Shown: piece after piece, positions 13,353 to 29,388 of the stretch
Layout of the letters: each line of letters starts with the position of its first letter
Position numbering within the stretch: the first letter of the stretch is position 1
From: Flavobacteriales bacterium
GTDB lineage: Bacteria > Bacteroidota > Bacteroidia > Flavobacteriales_F > PHOS-HE28
Length of the DNA: 35,378 bases
Assembly: GCA_017987115.1 (NCBI GenBank)
Contig: JAGNUG010000031.1
Coordinates: forward strand, 1 to 35,378
Direction: 5' to 3'
Made by a program: the position numbers and the translations under genes
The notes under the pieces: model-generated
Seen by the model: only the letters and a program-made list of their open reading frames with translations
The model's database searches: none
Told to the model about the DNA's origin: nothing

Positions 13353-16300
13353 ATGCGTCCACTCTTTCTATTCATCAGTATTGCCCTGTTCTTAACATGC
13401 AAGGCCCAGCCTTGTAGCGATGTAGAGGCCTGTATGGTGGTTAACCAGAACAATGACGGGTCGTTCTTTTTCGAGAATTGTTCAACACCTACGGCAAACT
13501 CACAATTCGTGTGGAGTTTTGGTGATGGCACTTCCGAGAATGGCGAAGTCGTGGATCATTACTATGCACAACCCGGCAGTTATACCGTTTGCCTGACCAT
13601 GTATTGGCAGAACTGCGTGGATAGTACGTGTACCACCATCGTGGTTGACGGTGCCAACCCGTGTGATGACCTGAATGCCGAGTTCTTTTACTCCGGAGGT
13701 ATACAGGGGGTGAATTTCGGACACCCGAACGTAGAATTGGACTGGTCATATCTCTGGAACTTCGGGGATGGAACAACGGGTTATGGCCCGAGTCCCTACC
13801 ACACCTATCCTGGGCCCGGCACCTACGAAACATGTCTTACCGTTTGGACCTGGGACCCTGTTGCCCAGGACACATGCTTCGCGGATCATTGTGAATTGAT
13901 CGTGATCGATGGTAGCCCATGCGACCTATTCCAAGCTTGTTACGTTCCAACACAAACTGGTGCCACAAGTGTCTTCTTCAACAATTGTACCCCGAACGAA
14001 CCAGGAACGGTCTTCACTTGGCTGTTCGGAGACGGGACGACCAGCAATGACATTGCACCGACACACACTTACGCGAACGCTGGAAATTATGAAGTCTGTT
14101 TGGTTGCAGAATGGCAGAATTGTTTTGATAGCACGTGCACGTACATCGCAGTAGGTAGTGACCCTTGCGCAAACCTGAGTGCCAACTTTAGTGCGAGCAC
14201 AACACCCAGCGGAACAATCTTCTCCAACGGTACAACGGGAACCGGTTTCCAAAGCATCTGGTCTTGGACATTTGGAGATGGAGACACCAGCGACGACCCA
14301 CAACCCATTCACACTTATGCTGAGCCCGGAATCTATTACACCTGTTTAACGGTTAACAGCCAATACGAATATGAAGGGCAGGTCATCACATGTGTAGACT
14401 CTGTCTGTATTGATGTCACGATCGAAGAACTTGGAGCTTGTGACGATGTGGAGGCCTGCATTTTGGCCAACGATTATGGTAACGGTACATTCCTATTCGA
14501 GAATTGCTCCACACCGATCGCTAACTCACAATTCGAATGGGACTTTGGTGATGGCACTTCTGATAATGGCATGATCGCGGACCATATTTATTCGCAAGCA
14601 GGTAGCTATACCGTTTGCCTGACCATGTATTGGCAGAATTGTGTGGATAGTACGTGTACCAACATCATAGTAGAAGGTGCGAACCCGTGTGATGACCTGA
14701 ATGCCGAGTTCTTTTACTCCGGAGGTACACAGGGAGTGAATTTCGGACACCCGAACGTAGAATTGGACTGGACGTATCTCTGGAACTTCGGAGACGGAAC
14801 AACGGGTTATGGCCCGAGCCCCTACCACACTTATCCTGGGCCTGGCACCTACGAAACATGCCTTACCGTTTGGACATGGGATCCCATTGCCCAGGACACC
14901 TGCTTCGCCGATCATTGTGAATTGATCGTGATCGGCGGCGGCCCATGTGAATTCCTGCAGGCTTGTCACATTCCAACACAAACCAGCGCCACTAGTGTGT
15001 TCTTCAATAATTGCACTCCTAACGAACCGGGAACGGTCTTCACTTGGCTCTTCGGGGACGGGTCGACCAGTAACGACATTGCACCAACGCACACCTACGC
15101 GAACGAAGGTGCTTATGAAGTTTGTTTAGTTGCCGAATGGCAGAATTGTTTCGACAGCACATGCACGTACATAACTGTTGGGCAAGGCAACCCATGTGAT
15201 GACTTCGCGGTATACCTCGCATGGAACCAAGGTGGGAACGACACCTATTTTTTCAACGCAACTTCGAACCAGCCCAACGTTACTTACACGTGGATATTCG
15301 ATGATGGAACCCCTGATGCAACTGGCCAGAACGTGCAACACATATTTACCGACCCTGGTACCTATTGGGTCTGTGTTGTAGGGATGTACTTCAATGAAGT
15401 TTCTCAAGAAACATGCATTGTTGAAGACTGCTTTTCATTGGTCGTGGGAGGTGGAAGCCCATGCGACGAGCTTGACGCCAACTTCAGTTACTCTGGTGGT
15501 GCCTCAGGTATGAACTTCGCGAATGCCGTGATCAATAGCACATGGACCTATTTCTGGGACTTCGGGGACGGCACAACGGATTATGGCCCAAACCCCTACC
15601 ACACCTACCCAGCACCGGGTACTTACCAAACTTGCCTGACCGTATGGACATGGGACCCTGTGAATCAGGACACGTGTTTTGCTGACCATTGTGAAACGGT
15701 CATTGCTAGCGGCATCGGTGATCCCTGTGAAAACCTGAATGCCGAATTCGTATCCACGACCACACCGAACGGCACGTTCTTCAGTAACGCAACAACTGGC
15801 GCTGGGCTACAGACCACGTGGTTTTGGGAGTTCGGCGATGGCAGCACCAGCAACGACGCGCAGCCGAACCATATGTACACGGCCGGCACCTATACCGTTT
15901 GCCTTACGGCGACCAGCATCTATGAACAACCCGGCGGCAATTTGGTAACCTGTTCCGATTCAACATGTCACACACTGGTGATCCAAGGCGGGGACCCGTG
16001 CGATTTCTTGATCGCTTGTTTCGAACCGACCCAGACCAGCTCCAATGTCGTGTTCTTCAACAACTGCACACCGAACGAACAGGGCACCGTATACACTTGG
16101 TTCTTTGGAGATGGCACCGAAAGCAATGATGCATCACCGGTGCATACTTTCCCCGCTGGAGCAGGTGCATATTCGGTCTGCTTGATCGCGGAGTGGCAGA
16201 ATTGTGTAGACAGTATCTGTACGACCATCACCGTAGGGAACACCATGGGCTGCGATAGTTTTGCGACCTGGTTCGATGTGACGTACGGGAACGTACATGT

Positions 16301-16766
16301 ATTCTTCGAGGCACAAACATCCCAAAGCGTGGATGGATACGTTTGGGATTTCGGCGATGGAACAGAAGGATACAATAGCGAAGAGATCCATTTTTTCGAA
16401 CCACCGGGACCATACACTGTTTGCCTAAGCACGTATTACTGGAATCAGAATACACAGGACACATGCTGGTCCACTTCCTGCCAAACGGTTGAGCCTTTCG
16501 GTCCGAACGGCATCACCGACCTGAACGCTGAGGATCTATTCAGCATCTATCCGCAACCCGCTACGGATGTCATCACCATCGATGGCGCAACACCCATGAA
16601 AGATGCGACAGTGGAGTTGTTCAGCATGGATGGTCGTCTGGAACACCAAGAACGGATCACGGCACTGCCCCATCAATTGAATATTTCTGAATTAAAACCT
16701 GCGGTCCATCTAATGCAGATCCAGTTGGATGGTGTTCGGTACAATTATCGCATCGTGATCCAATAG
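13353..16766 (+). CDS. Secreted protein with 12 PKD domains and a T9SS sorting domain
   Basis: A large 1137-residue cell-surface protein. A signal peptide ends near residue 19. Twelve PKD beta-sandwich modules of 82-91 residues follow directly, starting near residues 21, 104, 190, 272, 363, 446, 532, 615, 704, 792, 883 and 967. Each has a W-x-FGDGT-like core and a YTVCLT-like strand. Every module begins with Cys and holds further Cys pairs (for example NCVDSTC), so disulfides probably stiffen the rod. The modules fall into classes in the order A B C D A B C E B D C F. A type A sorting domain (1054-1137; YPQPATDVITI) ends the protein. There is no catalytic domain, so adhesin or structural filament is the likeliest role. 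It may be cotranscribed with the next gene, 37 bases on. Confidence 0.93.
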   Translation: MRPLFLFISIALFLTCKAQPCSDVEACMVVNQNNDGSFFFENCSTPTANSQFVWSFGDGTSENGEVVDHYYAQPGSYTVCLTMYWQNCVDSTCTTIVVDGANPCDDLNAEFFYSGGIQGVNFGHPNVELDWSYLWNFGDGTTGYGPSPYHTYPGPGTYETCLTVWTWDPVAQDTCFADHCELIVIDGSPCDLFQACYVPTQTGATSVFFNNCTPNEPGTVFTWLFGDGTTSNDIAPTHTYANAGNYEVCLVAEWQNCFDSTCTYIAVGSDPCANLSANFSASTTPSGTIFSNGTTGTGFQSIWSWTFGDGDTSDDPQPIHTYAEPGIYYTCLTVNSQYEYEGQVITCVDSVCIDVTIEELGACDDVEACILANDYGNGTFLFENCSTPIANSQFEWDFGDGTSDNGMIADHIYSQAGSYTVCLTMYWQNCVDSTCTNIIVEGANPCDDLNAEFFYSGGTQGVNFGHPNVELDWTYLWNFGDGTTGYGPSPYHTYPGPGTYETCLTVWTWDPIAQDTCFADHCELIVIGGGPCEFLQACHIPTQTSATSVFFNNCTPNEPGTVFTWLFGDGSTSNDIAPTHTYANEGAYEVCLVAEWQNCFDSTCTYITVGQGNPCDDFAVYLAWNQGGNDTYFFNATSNQPNVTYTWIFDDGTPDATGQNVQHIFTDPGTYWVCVVGMYFNEVSQETCIVEDCFSLVVGGGSPCDELDANFSYSGGASGMNFANAVINSTWTYFWDFGDGTTDYGPNPYHTYPAPGTYQTCLTVWTWDPVNQDTCFADHCETVIASGIGDPCENLNAEFVSTTTPNGTFFSNATTGAGLQTTWFWEFGDGSTSNDAQPNHMYTAGTYTVCLTATSIYEQPGGNLVTCSDSTCHTLVIQGGDPCDFLIACFEPTQTSSNVVFFNNCTPNEQGTVYTWFFGDGTESNDASPVHTFPAGAGAYSVCLIAEWQNCVDSICTTITVGNTMGCDSFATWFDVTYGNVHVFFEAQTSQSVDGYVWDFGDGTEGYNSEEIHFFEPPGPYTVCLSTYYWNQNTQDTCWSTSCQTVEPFGPNGITDLNAEDLFSIYPQPATDVITIDGATPMKDATVELFSMDGRLEHQERITALPHQLNISELKPAVHLMQIQLDGVRYNYRIVIQ
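13413..14165 (+). repeat. PKD A-B-C block, copy 1
   Basis: Encodes PKD modules 1-3. It aligns in frame with 14439-15194 at a constant offset of 1026 bases (342 codons). Conservation is highest in module B, where I count roughly nine of ten bases identical and most changes silent. Confidence 0.85.
14439..15194 (+). repeat. PKD A-B-C block, copy 2
   Basis: Encodes PKD modules 5-7, the partner of 13413-14165. Module 4 (class D) separates the two blocks, so the duplicated unit was probably A-B-C-D or included its edge. Single B, D and C modules recur later (modules 9, 10, 11) in more diverged form. Confidence 0.85.
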
Positions 16767-17999: not shown

Positions 18000-18350
18000 T
18001 TACGCCGCAACATCAGCACGTTGTGGAAGCAATTGGAAATCGCTCAGCACCACTTCGGTGATGTAGCGCTTGCTACCGTCTTTGGTTTCGTAGCTGCGGT
18101 GTACCAAACGCCCTTCCAATGCAACGGGTGAACCTTTACGAAGAATGCGGGCCACGGCATCCGCAGTACTTCCCCATGCAACAACCGTGTGCCATTGTGT
18201 ATCGGTAACGCGTTCACCTTGTGCATTGCGGTAGCTATCGTTCGTGGCCAATGAGAGGCGAGCCACCTTACGGCCTTCTGCTACTTCGCGTACTTCAGGG
18301 TCAAAACCAAGGTTGCCAATAAGGTGTACTCTGTTCTTTAGCGTGTTCAT
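18000..18350 (-). CDS. ssb: Short single-stranded DNA-binding protein, copy 1
   Basis: A 116-residue OB-fold protein that binds single-stranded DNA. It opens with LKNRVHLIGNLGFDPEVRE and has VARLSLATNDSYRN, DTQWHTVVAWG (the SSB signature Trp region), GSPVALEGRLVHRSYE and RYITEVVLSDFQLLP. It stops right after the OB fold, ending QRADVAA. The acidic DDDIPF-like tip that recruits repair and replication partners in normal SSBs is absent, so it is probably an accessory SSB. Nearly identical to the gene at 24931-25281. Start: ATG at 18350. Confidence 0.95.
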   Translation of the reverse strand: MNTLKNRVHLIGNLGFDPEVREVAEGRKVARLSLATNDSYRNAQGERVTDTQWHTVVAWGSTADAVARILRKGSPVALEGRLVHRSYETKDGSKRYITEVVLSDFQLLPQRADVAA

Positions 18351-18450
18351 GGGAATTGGGTTTTAGTGTTTTGTTTTCGTTACACCGAGGGATTGTTCCC
18401 AACGGCGATGCAAACATTCACCGGTGCCCATTCCTTAATCGGTTAATACC

Positions 18451-18497
18451 CGTATGTAGTCGTTCATAGCCGTTTGCTGTCGGTTGCTGTACGGTAG
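18451..18497 (-). promoter_or_regulatory. Helically phased CGT repeats upstream of ssb copy 1
   Basis: On the plus strand CG-started units recur at 18451, 18461, 18471, 18481 and 18492 (CGTAT, CGTTC, CGTTT, CGGTT, CGGTA); read toward ssb each unit ends in an AAACG-like block. The array begins 101 bases upstream of the ATG. One 10-bp turn between units suggests a protein binding one face of DNA. Confidence 0.5.
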
Positions 18498-18660
18498 TTT
18501 TTGGTACTGATGACACTGGTTTAATTCGATCCTACCTTACATTTCATCGGGCGCCCCAACTATCCGTAGGTTGATCGATATAGGGCGTTGTTAACCAATT
18601 CCGCTGGCAAACACTCTCGTCTCCCTCTACCACCCAAAGCAAAACCCAACCCAAGCAACC

Positions 18661-18705: not shown

Positions 18706-21528
18706 ATGAAACCGATCTTTCTAGCACTACTCGCCTGTAGCTCCTTTGCAGGCTTTTCGCAGACCACAACAACACCGCAACGGACGAATGAAGTTCGGTT
18801 CGAAGAAAACCGGGGTCAAGTAAAGGATCAGAACTGGCAGCCACGGGAAGATGTTTTGTTCTCCGGTTCAACGCAGGGGATCAACTTCCACATTCGTGCG
18901 AATGGGATCAGCTACCAATTGTCGCGTTTGGAACAAAAGCCATTGGTCGCTGATGCTTCTCAACAACCGCATGGTATTGCGAGCAAAAAGCATGACGAAT
19001 TACCGGCCGCTACTACGATCACAAGCCACCGGATCGACATTGATTGGGTCGCATCTGAACGTGATCCTGCGATCAAACCCAATGGTGAACTTCCCAGCTA
19101 CACCAATTATTACAACATACCCGAGCACACGGCACCTGCGTTACTGGTAAAGTCATACAGTGCTGTAAACTTTAGTAACATATGGCCGGGTGTAGACCTG
19201 GAATACCACGCGCGCAATGGCGTTCTGGAAAGCGATTGGACGGTACACGACCCAGCGGATCATACGAAGATAAAGTTCACGGTCAGTGGTGCTGATCTGC
19301 GTGTAGATGAAGCGGGTTACTTGGTCCTTAACACACCATTGGGCAGCATCCGTGAAGGACAACTGATCGCTACTCAAAACGGCGAAGCGCGCAACGTGCA
19401 ATGGGTCGTATTCGGGAATACCGTCTCCATCAGCGCAACAGGGTTAGATGCGAACGTGCCTTTGATCATTGATCCGCCGACCCGACTTTGGGGTACGTAC
19501 TTAGGAGGCACGGGCGATGAGTTTCCTTGGTCATCAGAAAATGATGGAACCGGTGGTCTTTACGTTGCAGGGGTAACATCTTCCAGCGCGAACATCGCCA
19601 CAACAGGCGCTCACCAAGTAACGTATGCGGGACAATACGACGCATTCCTTAGCCGCTTCGGAGCCAACGGCATGCCGATGTGGAGCACCTACTACGGCGG
19701 CAATGAAGATGATTTCGGTCGCGACTGTTCGGTATCGCCAATGAACGGAGATGTATACCTCTCTGGGGCAACTCTGTCGGGGTTCGGTATTGCTACTCCG
19801 GGTGCTCACCAAGAAAACCCGTGTGGTACGTTGGATGCGTTCTTGGTAAAGTTCAACGCCACTGGGCTTCGCTCGTGGGGCACTTACTACTGTGGTACCG
19901 ACATAGAAGAAGGCAATGCCTGCTCCGTAGATCAGTTCGGGAATGTCTACATGGCCGGTTGGACCCTCTCGGTAGATTCAATTGCCACACCGGGATCCTT
20001 TCAACCTGTGCACGCAAGCCCGAATGCAATGGATGCGTTCTTGGTAAAATTCGATACTTCCGGCACGCGCCAGTGGGGCACTTATGTTGGCGGCTTGAAC
20101 GAAGACCGGGCCTACGACTGCAAGGTCGATGGACTAGGATCGGTCTATCTCTCCGGCAGGACCCAGGGGCTTCCCGTAGGCGCTACAACGGGGGGCCACC
20201 AGCCTTTTTTTGGTGGGTTCGTTGATGCGTTCTTGCAGAAGTACGACAGCAATGGAAACCTGACCTGGGGCACCTACTATGGGGGTCCCGACCTGGATAC
20301 CTGGGGCTTTTGCGCCGTAGATGATGACCATGTGTATTTGGCAGGCACCACTTTATCGGATACCGGGATCGCAACGCCCGGTGCGTACCAGACCATTGCT
20401 ACATCTCCCGGGAATTTCGACGATGATGCGTTCCTGATCCAATTCGAACACACTGGAGAGCGCAACTGGGGCACCTACCTCGGGGGTATGGCAGGCGATG
20501 CCTTGAACGGAGTGGCAACGGACGGCAATGGAAGTGTTCTCATTACAGGATGGTCCCGTTCTACTAGTGGCATGGCAAGCAGCGGTAGTTATGATACCAT
20601 CCATGAAGGTGTGGAAGACGGCTTTCTAGCCAAGTTCACCAGCACGGGAGCACTTCACTGGAGTACTTACTATGGAGGCCCGGGAAATGACGTAGGCAAA
20701 GGTTGCGTTGCGATGGGCGGTGATGTTGTTTACATGATCGGCTACACCTATTCAAGTACACAGATCGCATCTCCTGGCGCGCACGATACCACTTTTGATG
20801 GCGGTCAGGGTGATGGCTTCATCATAAAGTTCGATGGCTGCAACCGCGACCCGATCGACCTATTACCGAACAGTGCCGCCAACTGCGGTCTTGATAGCGT
20901 ATTGCTTACAGTAAACGATGGTTTTGAATGCAGATGGAATCCTTCAGAGGGACTTTCCGAAAGTTTCGGCAATTCCGTAATTGCCACACCAAGTGTATCA
21001 ACCACCTTCTACGCACGGCATATCGACGCCAATGGTTGCGCTTCTGTGGACAGTGTATTGATCACCGTAACCAACATCGACACAACGGTCATTGTATCCG
21101 GAGCAATGCTAACAACGGCGCAGCAAGGCGCAACCTACCAGTGGTTCAATTGCGATAGTTTGATGGCGCTCCCAGGTGAAACCAATGCGGTCTATGACGT
21201 AACGATCAACGGCTCTTACGCTGTGGCGCTACAACTGAACGGATGCACAGATACCAGTGCGTGTGTACTGATCACGAATGCTGGTTTGATCGAGAATGCA
21301 GCAGCCAATTTGTATAGCATCGCTCCAAACCCGACCACAGGTGCACTCACCGTTTATGCCCCATCAGTACACGACTACCGCGTTCAACTGTTCGACGTAA
21401 CCGGCAGCCTTGTTTATTCCAACCGTTTCGTAACCGACCGCCCAACCTTTTCCATAGAGCACCTACCCGCTGGTGTGTATTGGTTGCGGATAAATGGGGA
21501 GCGTGGTTTGAAGGTGGTTAAGATGTGA
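18706..21528 (+). CDS. SBBP-repeat beta-propeller protein with T9SS sorting domain
   Basis: A secreted protein of 940 residues. The signal peptide ends near residue 19 (GFSQ). Residues about 28-255 match the N-terminal domain common in Bacteroidota SBBP proteins (RFEENRGQVKDQNW, INFHIRANGISYQL, YSAVNFSNIWPGVDLEY). Seven or eight SBBP repeats follow from about 261 to 711, each like WGTYYGG...GNVYMAGWT...IATPGAHQ...DAFLVKF, expected to close a beta-propeller. About 715-860 is an Ig-like region with paired Cys. The last 75 residues form a type A sorting domain (IAPNPTTGALTVYAP, then GVYWLRINGE). Probably exposed on the cell surface; ligand unknown. It lies between the two ssb direct repeats. Confidence 0.92.
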   Translation: MKPIFLALLACSSFAGFSQTTTTPQRTNEVRFEENRGQVKDQNWQPREDVLFSGSTQGINFHIRANGISYQLSRLEQKPLVADASQQPHGIASKKHDELPAATTITSHRIDIDWVASERDPAIKPNGELPSYTNYYNIPEHTAPALLVKSYSAVNFSNIWPGVDLEYHARNGVLESDWTVHDPADHTKIKFTVSGADLRVDEAGYLVLNTPLGSIREGQLIATQNGEARNVQWVVFGNTVSISATGLDANVPLIIDPPTRLWGTYLGGTGDEFPWSSENDGTGGLYVAGVTSSSANIATTGAHQVTYAGQYDAFLSRFGANGMPMWSTYYGGNEDDFGRDCSVSPMNGDVYLSGATLSGFGIATPGAHQENPCGTLDAFLVKFNATGLRSWGTYYCGTDIEEGNACSVDQFGNVYMAGWTLSVDSIATPGSFQPVHASPNAMDAFLVKFDTSGTRQWGTYVGGLNEDRAYDCKVDGLGSVYLSGRTQGLPVGATTGGHQPFFGGFVDAFLQKYDSNGNLTWGTYYGGPDLDTWGFCAVDDDHVYLAGTTLSDTGIATPGAYQTIATSPGNFDDDAFLIQFEHTGERNWGTYLGGMAGDALNGVATDGNGSVLITGWSRSTSGMASSGSYDTIHEGVEDGFLAKFTSTGALHWSTYYGGPGNDVGKGCVAMGGDVVYMIGYTYSSTQIASPGAHDTTFDGGQGDGFIIKFDGCNRDPIDLLPNSAANCGLDSVLLTVNDGFECRWNPSEGLSESFGNSVIATPSVSTTFYARHIDANGCASVDSVLITVTNIDTTVIVSGAMLTTAQQGATYQWFNCDSLMALPGETNAVYDVTINGSYAVALQLNGCTDTSACVLITNAGLIENAAANLYSIAPNPTTGALTVYAPSVHDYRVQLFDVTGSLVYSNRFVTDRPTFSIEHLPAGVYWLRINGERGLKVVKM

Positions 21529-24930: not shown

Positions 24931-25281
24931 CTAAGCGGCAACCTCTGAACGCTGTGGAAGCAATTGAAAATCGCTCAGTACCACTTCAGTGATGTAGCGC
25001 TTGCTACCGTCTTTGGTTTCGTAGCTGCGGTGTACCAAACGCCCTTCCAATGCAACGGGTGAACCTTTACGAAGAATGCGGGCCACGGCATCCGCAGTAC
25101 TTCCCCATGCAACCACGGTGTGCCATTGTGTGTCAGTAACGCGCTCACCCTGTGCATTGCGGTAGCTGTCGTTCGTGGCCAATGAGAGGCGAGCCACCTT
25201 ACGACCTTCTGCTACTTCGCGTACTTCAGGGTCAAATCCAAGGTTACCGATCAAGTGTACTCTGTTCTTTAGCGTGTTCAT
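24931..25281 (-). CDS. ssb: Short single-stranded DNA-binding protein, copy 2
   Basis: A 116-residue protein identical to copy 1 except near the C-terminus, QRSEVAA instead of QRADVAA. Most other base differences are silent, so the pair arose by recent duplication or is kept alike by gene conversion. As in copy 1, the protein ends after the OB fold with no acidic tip. It shares the terminator at 24876-24913 with the convergent serine hydrolase gene. Start: ATG at 25281. Confidence 0.95.
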   Translation of the reverse strand: MNTLKNRVHLIGNLGFDPEVREVAEGRKVARLSLATNDSYRNAQGERVTDTQWHTVVAWGSTADAVARILRKGSPVALEGRLVHRSYETKDGSKRYITEVVLSDFQLLPQRSEVAA

Positions 25282-25633
25282 GGGAATTGGGTTTTAGTGT
25301 TTTGTTTTCGTTACACCGAGGGACTATCCCAACGGCGATGCAAACATTCACCGGTGCGCATTCCTTAATCGGTTAATACCCGTATGTAGTCGTTCATAGC
25401 CGTGTGCTGTCGGTTGCTTTGCGGGAATTGGAATGGTGTCGATGCTGTGATCTGATCGATTGCTCGTTACTTACAATTGTTAGGGCGAAGGGCATTTCCG
25501 CTGAATTGATTTTCTGGCATGTTTTATAGACACTAGTTATCATTACGTCCTCTCGTATTGCTCTCGCCTCCACTCCGTCCCGATCCCCGTATCTTAGCAT
25601 AACCCACCATAGGCAGCATTTGCACCAGCATCT
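25282..25633. other. Divergent intergenic region of ssb copy 2 and the ECF sigma gene
   Basis: No gene is visible. Bases up to 25418 repeat the ssb copy 1 upstream region (partial minus-7 box at 25341-25348, phased repeats from 25381). The unique part contains TATCTTAG near 25592, a two-thirds match to the minus-7 consensus facing the sigma gene. Confidence 0.55.
25381..25425 (-). promoter_or_regulatory. Helically phased CGT repeats upstream of ssb copy 2
   Basis: CG-started units at 25381, 25391, 25401, 25411 and 25422, beginning 100 bases upstream of the ATG. The third unit differs from copy 1 by one base. Confidence 0.5.
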
Positions 25634-26227
25634 GTGTCTAGAAGGTTGAAAGGCCATTCACTTTTGCCAGAATTGACCGAACCGGAACTGATCCAAGGTT
25701 GCTTGGACGGAGACCGTCGCTGCCAGGAAGACCTGTATGCGCGGTACTCACGGCGTATGTACGCAGTGTGCTTGCGCTATGCCCGTCATGAGCTGGAGGC
25801 GCAGGACCTTATGCAGGAAGGATTCATCCGGGTATTCGAAAAACTTAGCAGTTTCCGATTGCAGGGGTCGCTGGAGGGGTGGGTGCGCAGGATCATGGTA
25901 CACACATCGATAAACCACTATCGCAAAAAAGCGTTCCAGAACGAGAAATTCGGTCTGGAGCATTTGCCAGAGGGCCAAGTAGACTCATTGGCCGTGGATC
26001 GCCTAGGCGAACGGGAGCTCATGGCGTTGATAGCGGCCTTACCCGATGGATATCGACACGTTTTCAATCTCTACGCGATAGAGGGATACGATCATAAAGA
26101 GATCGCGGAAATGCTGGGATGTGGGGAGAGCACATCGCGCAGCCAATTAAGTAAGGCCCGGAAGTATCTCCAGGACCGAATAGAACAAAAAGAAAATTAC
26201 ACCCATGCGGGAAATGCATCCCATTGA
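25634..26227 (+). CDS. ECF-type RNA polymerase sigma factor
   Basis: A 197-residue sigma-70 family protein of the extracytoplasmic-function type, with only regions 2 and 4. Region 2 (about 30-105) has DLYARYSRRMYAVCLRYA, AQDLMQEGFIRVFEKL and the DNA-melting WVRRIMVHTSINHYRKK. Region 4 (about 130-185) has LIAALPDGYRHVFNLYAIEG, then the helix-turn-helix HKEIAEMLGCGESTSRSQLSKARKYL in two parts. The start is uncertain: GTG at 25634 is used, and an in-frame TTG follows shortly. Its 3' end overlaps the next gene by 14-23 bases, so the two should be translated together. By context it is controlled by that membrane protein. Confidence 0.93.
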   Translation: MSRRLKGHSLLPELTEPELIQGCLDGDRRCQEDLYARYSRRMYAVCLRYARHELEAQDLMQEGFIRVFEKLSSFRLQGSLEGWVRRIMVHTSINHYRKKAFQNEKFGLEHLPEGQVDSLAVDRLGERELMALIAALPDGYRHVFNLYAIEGYDHKEIAEMLGCGESTSRSQLSKARKYLQDRIEQKENYTHAGNASH

Positions 26228-27827
26228 CGAACGATTCAAGGCGCTGTACGACGCAGAAGCCACGCCTCCGGAAGAAGTGCGCGCTGCCATCGGGCACCGT
26301 TTAGGCTGGAACAAAAGCGTAGGGAACGGGGTTTCGTTCCCGTCTACGTTTTTGTTGCTGGTAGGTGTGGCCGGAGCAGCATTGGCCTGGTATCATTGGA
26401 GCGATACCACGACCACACGACAAGAATTTGCCGCTGTGCAGGAACAGCAAATGCCCATCACGGCTGAACCGGCCGCCTCGTCCTCTGAAAGTGCGACGGA
26501 TCAGGCTACTTTTACTGCAGAAGCAGGGGTTGTTGAACAGGCAACGTTGGTACCTGAAAACCAAGAAGGGTCGATCACAAAGAACACTGAAGCGGTAAAC
26601 ACTGCAAAAAGCAACACAGCATCTCGACCGACCGCTGTCTCCGCCAATACGAAAAACCCAGCGTTGGCAACGCCTGGTCATAAGCAAAGCACGGTATCAG
26701 CAGGGTCTGGCGAGCAGGCAAGGTCTGGACCGGTTGTTCAGAAAAAAGAAGGTTCAACCCTGGCCTCCAAGAAACAAGGAACGGATCGCGGAAGTATTGC
26801 ATCTGAAGGAGTTGAACCGGGGTCACCGGCGATCAACGATGGGCAATCACGCAACACTGGAACTATTGCCGACAATTCCGATGATGAAAAAGCAAGTAAT
26901 GCGGTAGCAAAGGCCAACGAACTAGATGAACCGGCATTTACTGTAGGACATTCTGGCACTGAAGCCTGGGTCGGTCCTGCTGTGAACATTAACCGATTGG
27001 ATACGCGCTTTGCATTGATCGATACGGAAGCGTCGGCAAAACAGCCGTTCACCGCACAACGTGTCGCCGATTATGTAGTTCCCCATGGAAATTGGTGGGT
27101 GAGCATTTATGGCGGATTGAGTTCCGTCAAAGGCAAATGGTCGGGTGCGGATGCAGAGGCACTTGATCGATCGGAAGACTGGAAAAGCGGTTGGCAAGCT
27201 GGTGCATTGGTAGGTAGAACTTGGCGTTCCGGCTTTGGCGTTGGCATAGGAGCCGGCGTTGCTCGAATTCACAGCACATTCTCGGACGAACGTTCTTCTG
27301 TTTCAGGAGAAGCCGCCGACCTGGATACGGCATGGACCACGTCGAACTATCCTGGGACAGAAATTGTGATATCCACCTGGTCCATCGACACCACCTTTGC
27401 GCCGATCGTTGGACCACAGGAACGTAGGTCGGCCAATAATCAGTACACGGCAATTCAGGTCCCGCTTTCACTGTGGTGGCATAAGGACATTAGGCGTTGG
27501 AAAGTTGGTGCAACGGCAGGTGTCATGGGCTGGATCCCGATGAAAAGACAGGGCTTGACATTAGTACGACCAACCACGGATGCTGAACCTGCACCAACTG
27601 CACTTTCAAGCCCGGAAACCGAACCACGGTACGGAATGCAGTTACATGGAAATGCAGGTTTAAGCTTGGGCTTTATGTTTTGTGAGCAACTGACCCTCCT
27701 TGCCGAACCAATGATCAGTGCGCCGTTGTACAGAGGGAATGAAAACACGTCCCTCTCGCTTTCACGGCCCACTATACAATTAAGGCTTCAATATGATATC
27801 CATTCGCACATACAACGTTCAAAATAA
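26205..27827 (+). CDS. Predicted dual-membrane anti-sigma factor with outer-membrane barrel
   Basis: A 540-residue protein with an unusual layout. Residues 1-43 are a short cytoplasmic segment (IDERFKALYDAEATPPEEVRAA in two parts around PPEEV) like the N-termini of Bacteroidota anti-sigma-like proteins. One helix at about 46-63 (FLLLVGVAGAALAWYHW) should lie in the inner membrane. About 65-285 is low-complexity Ser/Thr/Glu/Lys-rich linker without predicted folds, long enough to cross the periplasm. About 290-540 is beta-rich with aromatic strand ends (WWVSIYGGLSSVKGKW, GFGVGIGAGVARIHS, LRLQYDIHSH), like a PorT-type outer-membrane barrel. This matches the dual-membrane-spanning (Dma) anti-sigma factors reported from Bacteroides. 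Start ATG 26205 or 26214. Confidence 0.75.
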   Translation: MREMHPIDERFKALYDAEATPPEEVRAAIGHRLGWNKSVGNGVSFPSTFLLLVGVAGAALAWYHWSDTTTTRQEFAAVQEQQMPITAEPAASSSESATDQATFTAEAGVVEQATLVPENQEGSITKNTEAVNTAKSNTASRPTAVSANTKNPALATPGHKQSTVSAGSGEQARSGPVVQKKEGSTLASKKQGTDRGSIASEGVEPGSPAINDGQSRNTGTIADNSDDEKASNAVAKANELDEPAFTVGHSGTEAWVGPAVNINRLDTRFALIDTEASAKQPFTAQRVADYVVPHGNWWVSIYGGLSSVKGKWSGADAEALDRSEDWKSGWQAGALVGRTWRSGFGVGIGAGVARIHSTFSDERSSVSGEAADLDTAWTTSNYPGTEIVISTWSIDTTFAPIVGPQERRSANNQYTAIQVPLSLWWHKDIRRWKVGATAGVMGWIPMKRQGLTLVRPTTDAEPAPTALSSPETEPRYGMQLHGNAGLSLGFMFCEQLTLLAEPMISAPLYRGNENTSLSLSRPTIQLRLQYDIHSHIQRSK

Positions 27828-28929
27828 GAGCCTTACGGCTGTTCTATCGCTATTGCTTCAAGGCGGCATAGTGAGTGCGCAGCCGTATTGTGACATTCTG
27901 CTTCGACCAGCGTTCGATGTTTCGTTCAACGGCAATGTGATCACGTGCTCGAACCTATCGACACCGCTTACTGCGGGAACTACGGAGCTGTGGAGTTATG
28001 GTGATGCAACCGTTTCCGACAGTTATGCTTATCATGAATACACCACTCTTGGCGTTTACCCTGTATGTCTAACACTGAGTACACAGGATGGCGCTTGCAG
28101 CTCCACCTATTGCAGGGATGTTGTTGTTCCGGAGAATGATTGTAACGGCTCTTGGAATTCAACCTTTTCCAGTAGCCAAACAGGTACCAACACATTGACC
28201 CTTACGGATATTTCCACTTCCGGCACCCCTGATTCCCGCCAATGGGGCTTTGGAGACCTTTCGGCGGTCTCCACCGATGAATCTCCTTCGCATACCTGGC
28301 TGCTACCTGGTTCACACCTCGTACACCTTACGCGTAGGCTGGGTGAGTGCGTTGTTACGGACGCACATTGGGTTACCGTAGATGGCAACGCAAGCACATG
28401 TGGGCAAGATCTGTTCGTGAATTTTACCAGTGAGGAAATGGGAGGTCAAGTGGTTTTTCAATCCGAGTTGACTTCTTTGGCATCCATTCCTGTGATCGCG
28501 TTGTGGAGCTACGGAGATGGTCTGTCCGATACCACATTCGCGAGCACACATACATACGCTGAGCCCGGTGAATATCAAACTTGCTTGTTCGTTGGTGCCA
28601 CCAACCTCAGTTCGTTCGACACCTGTTTTGCGTTCGTTTGCCGGACCATTACCGTAGGGGCTTCGCTAGTGGGGGTCACCGAAACCGAACAACATTCACT
28701 GAATGTTTGGCCCGTGCCGTTCCAGAATGAACTGCACCTGTCCGCACCTTGGCTTTCCGGTACGTGCATTGCCCGACTAACCGACGCAACGGGCAGGGAG
28801 ATCCACCGTTCGCAACAACATGTCACGGAACGCATGGACCTTAACCTGCCCGATCTGCGCAGCGGGGCCTATGTGTTGGAGGTCAACTCAGTCCTGGGAA
28901 GCAAGCGTACCCTTCTTATTCGTGATTGA
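27793..28929 (+). CDS. PKD-domain surface protein with T9SS sorting domain, third gene of the sigma operon
   Basis: A 378-residue secreted protein. A signal peptide ends near VSAQ (30). Three PKD-like modules follow at about 33-113 (TELWSYGDATVS), 116-198 (SRQWGFGDLSAV) and 203-294 (IALWSYGDGLSD), with Cys at module starts and ends as in the 12-PKD protein. A type A sorting domain spans about 303-378 (VWPVPFQNELHLS, then GAYVLEVNSV). The ATG at 27793 lies 35 bases inside the barrel gene, so translation is coupled. This puts a T9SS cargo under the same operon as the sigma/anti-sigma pair. It overlaps the 3' end of the opposing ssb3 gene by 42 bases. Confidence 0.88.
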   Translation: MISIRTYNVQNKSLTAVLSLLLQGGIVSAQPYCDILLRPAFDVSFNGNVITCSNLSTPLTAGTTELWSYGDATVSDSYAYHEYTTLGVYPVCLTLSTQDGACSSTYCRDVVVPENDCNGSWNSTFSSSQTGTNTLTLTDISTSGTPDSRQWGFGDLSAVSTDESPSHTWLLPGSHLVHLTRRLGECVVTDAHWVTVDGNASTCGQDLFVNFTSEEMGGQVVFQSELTSLASIPVIALWSYGDGLSDTTFASTHTYAEPGEYQTCLFVGATNLSSFDTCFAFVCRTITVGASLVGVTETEQHSLNVWPVPFQNELHLSAPWLSGTCIARLTDATGREIHRSQQHVTERMDLNLPDLRSGAYVLEVNSVLGSKRTLLIRD

Positions 28930-29289
28930 AGCATCGTCGTCCCAACCTTTTCCGGTAGTGCTCGCCAGCAAATGGAATTCACTGAGCGCCACTTCCGTGC
29001 TGTAGCGTTTTTCACCCGAAGCGGTTTCCCAACAGCGGTGGACCAATCGCCCTTCAATGACAAGACCGCTTCCCTTACGGGTCAATTCAGCCAAGCGCTC
29101 GGCTTGTTTGCCCCATGCAGTTATCGGGTGCCACTGGGTATTATCCTTCCACTCACCGTCAGCACCCTTATAGCGTTCGTTCGTTGCCAAGTTGATACGC
29201 ACCATGTGTTGGCCTTTACCCATCTCTTTTAGTTCAGGATCACTGCCTAGGTTACCGATCAGCTGTACTTTGTTCTTCATCGTTGCCAT
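28888..29289 (-). CDS. ssb: Short single-stranded DNA-binding protein, third paralogue
   Basis: A 133-residue SSB, clearly diverged from copies 1 and 2. It shares KNKVQLIGNLGSDPELKEM, INLATNERYK, NTQWHPITAWG, LVIEGRLVHRCWE and RYSTEVALSEFHLL with them. The tail after the OB fold (about 107-133) contains GWDDDASITNKKG and ends ASQD; the DDD is internal, so the usual terminal acidic-hydrophobic tip is missing. The ATG at 29289 (MATMKNKV) lines up with the MNTLKNRV start of the others; ATGs at 29292 and 29280 are alternatives. Its last 42 bases overlap the 3' end of the PKD gene on the opposite strand. Confidence 0.92.
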   Translation of the reverse strand: MATMKNKVQLIGNLGSDPELKEMGKGQHMVRINLATNERYKGADGEWKDNTQWHPITAWGKQAERLAELTRKGSGLVIEGRLVHRCWETASGEKRYSTEVALSEFHLLASTTGKGWDDDASITNKKGTLASQD

Positions 29290-29388
29290 CATTCGTGGTT
29301 TGTTTTAAGACCGGGGGATTTGTTTTCCGATCCGACGGCAAAGCAGGGACCGTTCGATCCAATGATCCGGTCAGTAAGCATTTACAGG

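Follow-up and report, generated by a model that had tools for sequence, protein, structure and literature searches.

A Probable Dma-Type Two-Membrane Anti-Sigma Factor in a Conserved Flavobacteriales Operon with an ECF Sigma Factor and a Predicted T9SS Cargo Protein

Introduction

Dual-membrane-spanning anti-sigma (Dma) proteins are composed of an N-terminal anti-sigma segment, one transmembrane (TM) helix, a long disordered tether, and a C-terminal barrel, and their genes neighbor sigma factor genes of the extracytoplasmic function (ECF) group ECF21 (PMC13088901). In B. thetaiotaomicron, Dma1 and Dma2 affect vesicles and polysaccharide-utilisation loci, and Dma2 is encoded in a three-gene operon, the other two genes of which are strongly induced without dma2 (PMC13088901). 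Here, we describe an operon on a 35,378-nt stretch of DNA (hereafter the window; contig JAGNUG010000031.1) from the genome of a Flavobacteriales bacterium (GCA_017987115.1; 3.7 Mb, 202 contigs, 96% complete), which encodes an ECF sigma factor, a 540-a.a protein with Dma architecture, and a 378-a.a PKD protein ending in a putative type A sorting domain of the type IX secretion system (T9SS). We consider it likely that this operon forms a Dma-type transmembrane switch controlling both itself and a set of T9SS type A cargo genes.

An earlier sequence-only reading of the locus had likened the middle protein to Dma factors. The likeness is one of architecture, and AlphaFold2 and Foldseek analyses bear it out, with all four parts described for Dma proteins (PMC13088901) present beside an overlapping ECF sigma factor gene. 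The same reading regarded the secreted PKD protein as the new element of the operon; a third gene as such is shared with the dma2 operon, where it encodes a DUF4943 protein, and what stands is the presence of predicted T9SS type A cargo in that place. The outputs also differ, being the dma2 operon region and polysaccharide-utilisation loci in the case of Dma2, and a predicted regulon of T9SS type A cargo here. To our knowledge, Bacteroides lacks a T9SS. The open-access literature searched yielded no report of a Dma protein connected to T9SS cargo.

ECF sigma factors have been connected to the T9SS in two other organisms. In P. gingivalis, the ECF sigma factor SigP connects T9SS expression to a two-component system, with the C-terminal domain (CTD) protein PorA acting upstream (PMC7712824). 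PorXY-SigP/PorA resembles the present operon in placing T9SS genes under an ECF sigma factor with input from a surface CTD protein, and differs in its two-component activation and machinery targets, whereas here a two-membrane anti-sigma factor is co-encoded and the predicted targets are cargo (PMC7712824). The SM6 ECF promoters of F. psychrophilum likewise indicate T9SS control, and SM6 genes include the machinery genes gldN and porU (PMC9723704); here, in contrast, most of the genes behind the sites encode predicted T9SS type A cargo, and the promoter has a GGCAGC box on its upstream side. Across the portions of both reports at hand, the targets are mainly machinery genes and a two-membrane anti-sigma factor is not mentioned (PMC7712824, PMC9723704).

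Gene Layout and Conservation of the Operon

The three genes are consecutive on the forward strand and overlap, as the sequence-only reading had described, with open reading frames at 25634–26227 (sigma factor), 26205–27827 (anti-sigma factor), and 27793–28929 (PKD protein). The first product matched Sigma70_r2 (E = 1.1e-16) and Sigma70_r4_2 (E = 5.1e-16), both above the Pfam cut-off, as well as TIGR02937 (95.7 bits), and consists of regions 2 and 4 only, which places it among the ECF sigma factors and upholds the earlier assignment. It evolves slowly, its orthologues throughout the genus being 53–80% identical to it, and its named close matches are from metagenome-assembled genomes labelled Flavobacteriales or Bacteroidetes. 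While the sigma frame is open from GTG 25634, the start common to congeners is TTG 25664 (LPELTEPELIQGC), giving a probable gene at 25664–26227; we preferred the latter and rejected the former because it shares bases with the conserved −10 box of the promoter predicted below. The anti-sigma gene overlaps the sigma gene by 23 nt from ATG 26205, or by 14 nt from an inner ATG preceding the HPID motif; the overlap is 23 or 26 nt at 30 of 33 congeneric loci, which supports the start at ATG 26205. Its overlap with the PKD gene is 35 nt.

The middle protein was searched for in 57 other genomes, comprising 34 congeners and 23 genomes from other families of the class, and was found in 32 of the former and none of the latter. 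The order of sigma factor, anti-sigma factor, and PKD gene is kept in congeners wherever the contig is long enough, including one (G028) in which the protein search had missed the middle protein. In total, this comparison across genomes, which the sequence-only reading had proposed as a check on its three-gene order, located the trio in 33 of the 34 congeners (cut by contig ends in G029 and G034), the exception being an 82% complete genome (G030). The middle and third proteins evolve quickly, with 19–42% identity to those of the window. The trio appears to be present twice in one congener (G001), on separate contigs (L033 and L035), and six congeneric loci (L039, L040, L042, L047, L054, and L058) carry an extra PKD protein gene after the trio, some encoding more than 1000 a.a.

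Architecture of the Middle Protein

The AlphaFold2 model of the 540-a.a protein (26205–27827), built on a 32-row family alignment, begins with helices at residues 6–16 and 23–33, followed by a helix at residues 46–66 (26340–26402) that matches in position a hydrophobic stretch of the related proteins and is taken as the inner-membrane helix. Residues 67–290 (26403–27074) form a putative periplasmic tether, with a predicted local distance difference test score (pLDDT) below 50 through most of 67–288 and, in congeners, a composition rich in A/P/S/T/G with few aromatics. The C-terminal part is a beta-barrel with eight main strands between residues 296 and 532 (27090–27800), mostly at pLDDT >90; two of its strands (344–381 and 388–429) far exceed membrane-spanning length and form a long projecting hairpin that is probably extracellular. 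Foldseek matched the barrel to the OmpA transmembrane domain (TMt 0.64–0.68) and to the OmpW, Ail, and OmpT barrels, while no Pfam family scored above its cut-off (OMP_b-brl_2 matched residues 295–375 at E = 0.04). The single helix, the disordered linker of about 220 residues, and the barrel were all anticipated by the sequence-only reading, which had expected a barrel inside residues 290–540, and modelling of the product alone placed a confident one there.

The cytoplasmic segment (residues 1–35; 26205–26309) carries the motif HPID..F..L..AE..PP, which is near-invariant in the genus, with D8, F11, L14, P21, and P22 invariant across 32 sequences; other Bacteroidota anti-sigma genes open with a looser motif, LF..L...E..P....W..I. 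From this conserved helical segment and the overlap with the sigma gene, we infer that residues 1–35 bind the ECF sigma factor. Barrel families such as OMP_b-brl_2 are common and the barrel is a separate gene in some lineages (see below), so the protein might be read as an ordinary outer-membrane protein with an odd N-terminus rather than one spanning two membranes. We regard this as very improbable, since some 45 residues bearing the five invariant positions precede the helix and the gene overlaps that of the ECF sigma factor throughout the genus.

Predicted Promoter and Candidate Regulon

Upstream of the sigma gene, the congeners examined share RGCAGC followed by YGTC at a near-constant offset, ~68–78 nt before the first conserved codon. 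In the window, this site reads GGCAGCA-N16-TGTCTA (25612–25640, forward strand) and is the only one of its kind. Over 35 congeneric genomes scanned, GGCAGCR-N16/17-YGTCTW was clearly commoner than the reversed control, and when the spacer was varied from 7 to 27 in five congeners, 45 sites fell at N16 against a mean of 2.95, and at most 7, over the other 20 spacings. Such a sharp peak is expected of a real promoter and not of a chance word pair, and we propose GGCAGCR-N16/17-YGTCTW as a predicted ECF-type promoter, new to this work, that precedes the sigma gene genus-wide.

The sites might instead belong to another regulator, or form a conserved leader element, with an incidental link to the sigma factor. 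Their assignment to this sigma factor comes solely from autoregulation, and other conserved elements, among them a TAnnTT-like box, are present upstream of its gene. The fixed 16-nt spacing, however, together with the resemblance of the YGTCTW box to ECF promoters, the retention of the site at this sigma gene across the genus, and its absence from the sigma genes of three paralogous loci make this alternative improbable.

Most genes directly behind the sites appear to encode secreted proteins. With sigma genes excluded, Por_Secre_tail was found (E 0.01 or better) in 41 of 68 downstream proteins, while the reversed pattern gave 3 of 23 (Fisher p 7e-5), and in that control the genes with sorting-domain-like ends have the pattern deep within the reading frame. 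For comparison, congeneric genomes each hold at least 116–150 Por_Secre_tail genes, or ~5% of genes on an estimate of ~3,000 per genome. The same gene families stand behind the sites in more than one genome (a family of 14 and further ones of 5, 5, 3, 3, and 2). Contigs C13, C192, and C200 of the window's genome carry sites that front relatives of those family genes, at best 46–54% identical. Taken together, the spacing peak and the sorting-domain enrichment make a regulon of T9SS type A cargo under this sigma factor, its operon partner included, the most likely reading. The window's genome encodes a T9SS (GldL, E = 7.4e-71, and at least 150 Por_Secre_tail matches).

The PKD Protein as Probable Output and Candidate Ligand

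The third gene (27793–28929), which follows the anti-sigma gene in congeners as well, encodes a protein that begins with a hydrophobic N-terminus ending in VSAQ (as judged by eye) and matches PKD_4 (E = 1.3e-18) and PKD. Its AlphaFold2 model (mean pLDDT 84.9) contains three PKD-type domains and a separate C-terminal beta-sandwich, which corresponds to the putative T9SS type A sorting domain (PF18962, Por_Secre_tail; residues 305–369; 28705–28899, forward strand). The sorting domain match reached E = 2.1e-4 and 22 bits against a 27-bit cut-off; with its C-terminal position and the sandwich in the model, it agrees with the sequence-only reading of a PKD protein with a T9SS sorting domain.

That reading had left the protein as ligand of the barrel, output, or both. 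Given that its gene belongs to a probably auto-regulated operon, it is probably an output, and possibly also a ligand, a role for which co-variation is the one line of support. Across 22 loci, the pairwise distances of the barrel correlated with those of the PKD domains (rho 0.84; partial 0.82 given the sigma protein). Because the sigma protein proved a weak control, comparisons between domains at equal column number were added, in which the value for barrel and PKD (0.67) exceeded those for PKD and the sorting domain of the same protein (0.47) and for the barrel and the N-terminus of its protein (0.58). This pattern is at most suggestive of a ligand role.

Related Operons Beyond the Genus

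Scanning contigs with the sigma alignment gave 80 loci and, outside the genus, most of the next genes start with a related N-terminus and a TM segment. Among 65 such next-gene proteins, 21 matched OMP_b-brl_2 and 4 matched CHU_C, the T9SS type B domain. In Mucilaginibacter and Pedobacter (loci L247–L299), the sigma factor is related, the anti-sigma N-terminus is similar, and a barrel-like outer-membrane protein comes next in the operon; there, in contrast to the window, the anti-sigma factor is short with a TM helix and the barrel is a separate gene of ~270 a.a, providing a natural fusion/fission pair. In 25 out-of-genus operons, hand-picked for a long anti-sigma factor of the fused-barrel type and an intact next gene, the third gene carried Por_Secre_tail in 12, including that of Acidiluteibacter ferrifornacis. 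The cargo proteins in third place belong to more than one family, so the association of sigma factor, anti-sigma factor, and T9SS cargo recurs in more than one form.

These operons bear on what the barrel senses. The same switch could respond to another cue, such as outer-membrane stress, a glycan, a lipid, or a phage, with the PKD protein merely one output; we give this serious weight, a little short of an even chance. In loci of the Saprospiraceae/Chitinophagales type, the third gene is lipoprotein-like rather than T9SS cargo; the B. thetaiotaomicron Dma proteins act on vesicles and polysaccharide-utilisation loci (PMC13088901), and the P. gingivalis T9SS is linked to SigP via a two-component system (PMC7712824). 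Against such a cue stand the co-variation of PKD protein and barrel, which is closer than that between domains of the same protein, and the recurrence of T9SS cargo as third gene in other lineages.

Sister Systems in the Same Genome

The window's genome contains three related sigma loci, on contigs C166, C89, and C122. On C166, a second tether-and-barrel anti-sigma factor is encoded (L080:5358–7127, reverse strand), and T9SS type A sorting-domain matches directly precede its sigma gene. On C89 (L078:5744–6823, reverse strand) and C122 (L079:7101–8357, reverse strand), anti-sigma-like proteins adjoining ECF sigma genes end in a CHU_C domain (E = 2.5e-7 and 9.8e-10, respectively), one of them also with two PKD stretches, and large genes for type B cargo come next. 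Four anti-sigma factors of this CHU_C type occur outside the genus, and this may be a more surprising system than the trio itself; no anti-sigma factor with a T9SS sorting domain was found in the open-access literature searched. By sequence, anti-sigma factors are repeatedly tied to the T9SS in this lineage, through a barrel or a sorting-domain-like end, which supports, without proving, the sensing of export.

The barrel might then read the status of the T9SS, with cargo build-up or non-arrival of the PKD protein altering it such that the sigma factor is released or held, a feedback on cargo that we view as possible but somewhat short of even. The predicted T9SS type A regulon, the cargo gene within the operon, and the two paralogous anti-sigma factors ending in a type B domain before type B cargo genes are consistent with this, as is PorA, a CTD protein acting upstream of SigP in P. 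gingivalis (PMC7712824). On the other side, no T9SS machinery genes were seen behind sites among the downstream proteins read, and contact between PKD protein and barrel is conjectural.

Neighboring Features of the Window

An ssb-family gene (28888–29292, reverse strand) overlaps the end of the PKD gene, and the trio thus has ssb genes on both flanks. Direct repeats of 94% identity (18001–18300 with 24932–25231, and 18397–18499 with 25327–25429) correspond to a duplicated ssb gene and its upstream region. A phased CGTT-rich element (GTAGTCGTTCATAGCCGTKTGCTGTCGGTTGC) occurs at 25386–25417 and 18456–18487 and is perhaps part of an ssb promoter. Several congeners have similar sequence ahead of their sigma operon; we set the element aside as a regulator site of sigma operons, as in the window it sits within the duplicated ssb upstream region. 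Two large T9SS type A proteins are encoded elsewhere in the window (13353–16766 and 18706–21528), one with 12 PKD stretches and the other with DUF7948.

Proposed Mechanism and Significance

In the mechanism we propose, the cytoplasmic segment of the 540-a.a protein would hold the ECF sigma factor at the inner membrane, and the disordered tether would cross the periplasm to the small outer-membrane barrel with its long hairpin. Relayed along the tether, a change at the barrel would release the sigma factor to transcribe its own operon and T9SS type A genes from GGCAGCR-N16/17-YGTCTW promoters. The PKD protein, itself predicted T9SS type A cargo, would most likely reside at the surface beside the barrel as a ligand, cap, or feedback reporter.

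Several observations weigh against the switch and its regulon as drawn here. Most regulon loci were read from genomes chosen for many sites, and sites number 0 to 12 per genome, far fewer than the cargo genes, so most cargo lies outside the regulon. In the genome of the window, the strict pattern gives just three sites, one apparently spurious, and two of the four credible sites of this genome (that of the operon included) needed a relaxed pattern. The sorting domain of the window's own PKD protein scores below its Pfam cut-off, and the co-variation test used the sigma protein, a poor stand-in for the species tree.

The sequence-only reading had envisaged a direct line from T9SS export at the surface to transcription. 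Of this, a probable two-membrane switch with predicted T9SS cargo outputs stands, while the sensing of export, or of the PKD protein, by the barrel is a conjecture to which co-variation lends some support. The fuller proposal, that the anti-sigma factor senses the surface arrival of its T9SS-exported partner and tunes a cargo regulon without a two-component system, with the sister systems doing so via a fused sorting domain, we put forward tentatively and judge to be nearer one chance in three than an even one.

Dma proteins were discovered recently and their signals are still being sought, as is the means by which Bacteroidota bring the expression of their many T9SS cargo proteins into line with export. 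With a specific promoter kept across the genus, a named ligand candidate, and a set of listed target genes, the trio makes both questions testable in one operon. In the organism itself, the switch probably governs which proteins are shown at the cell surface.

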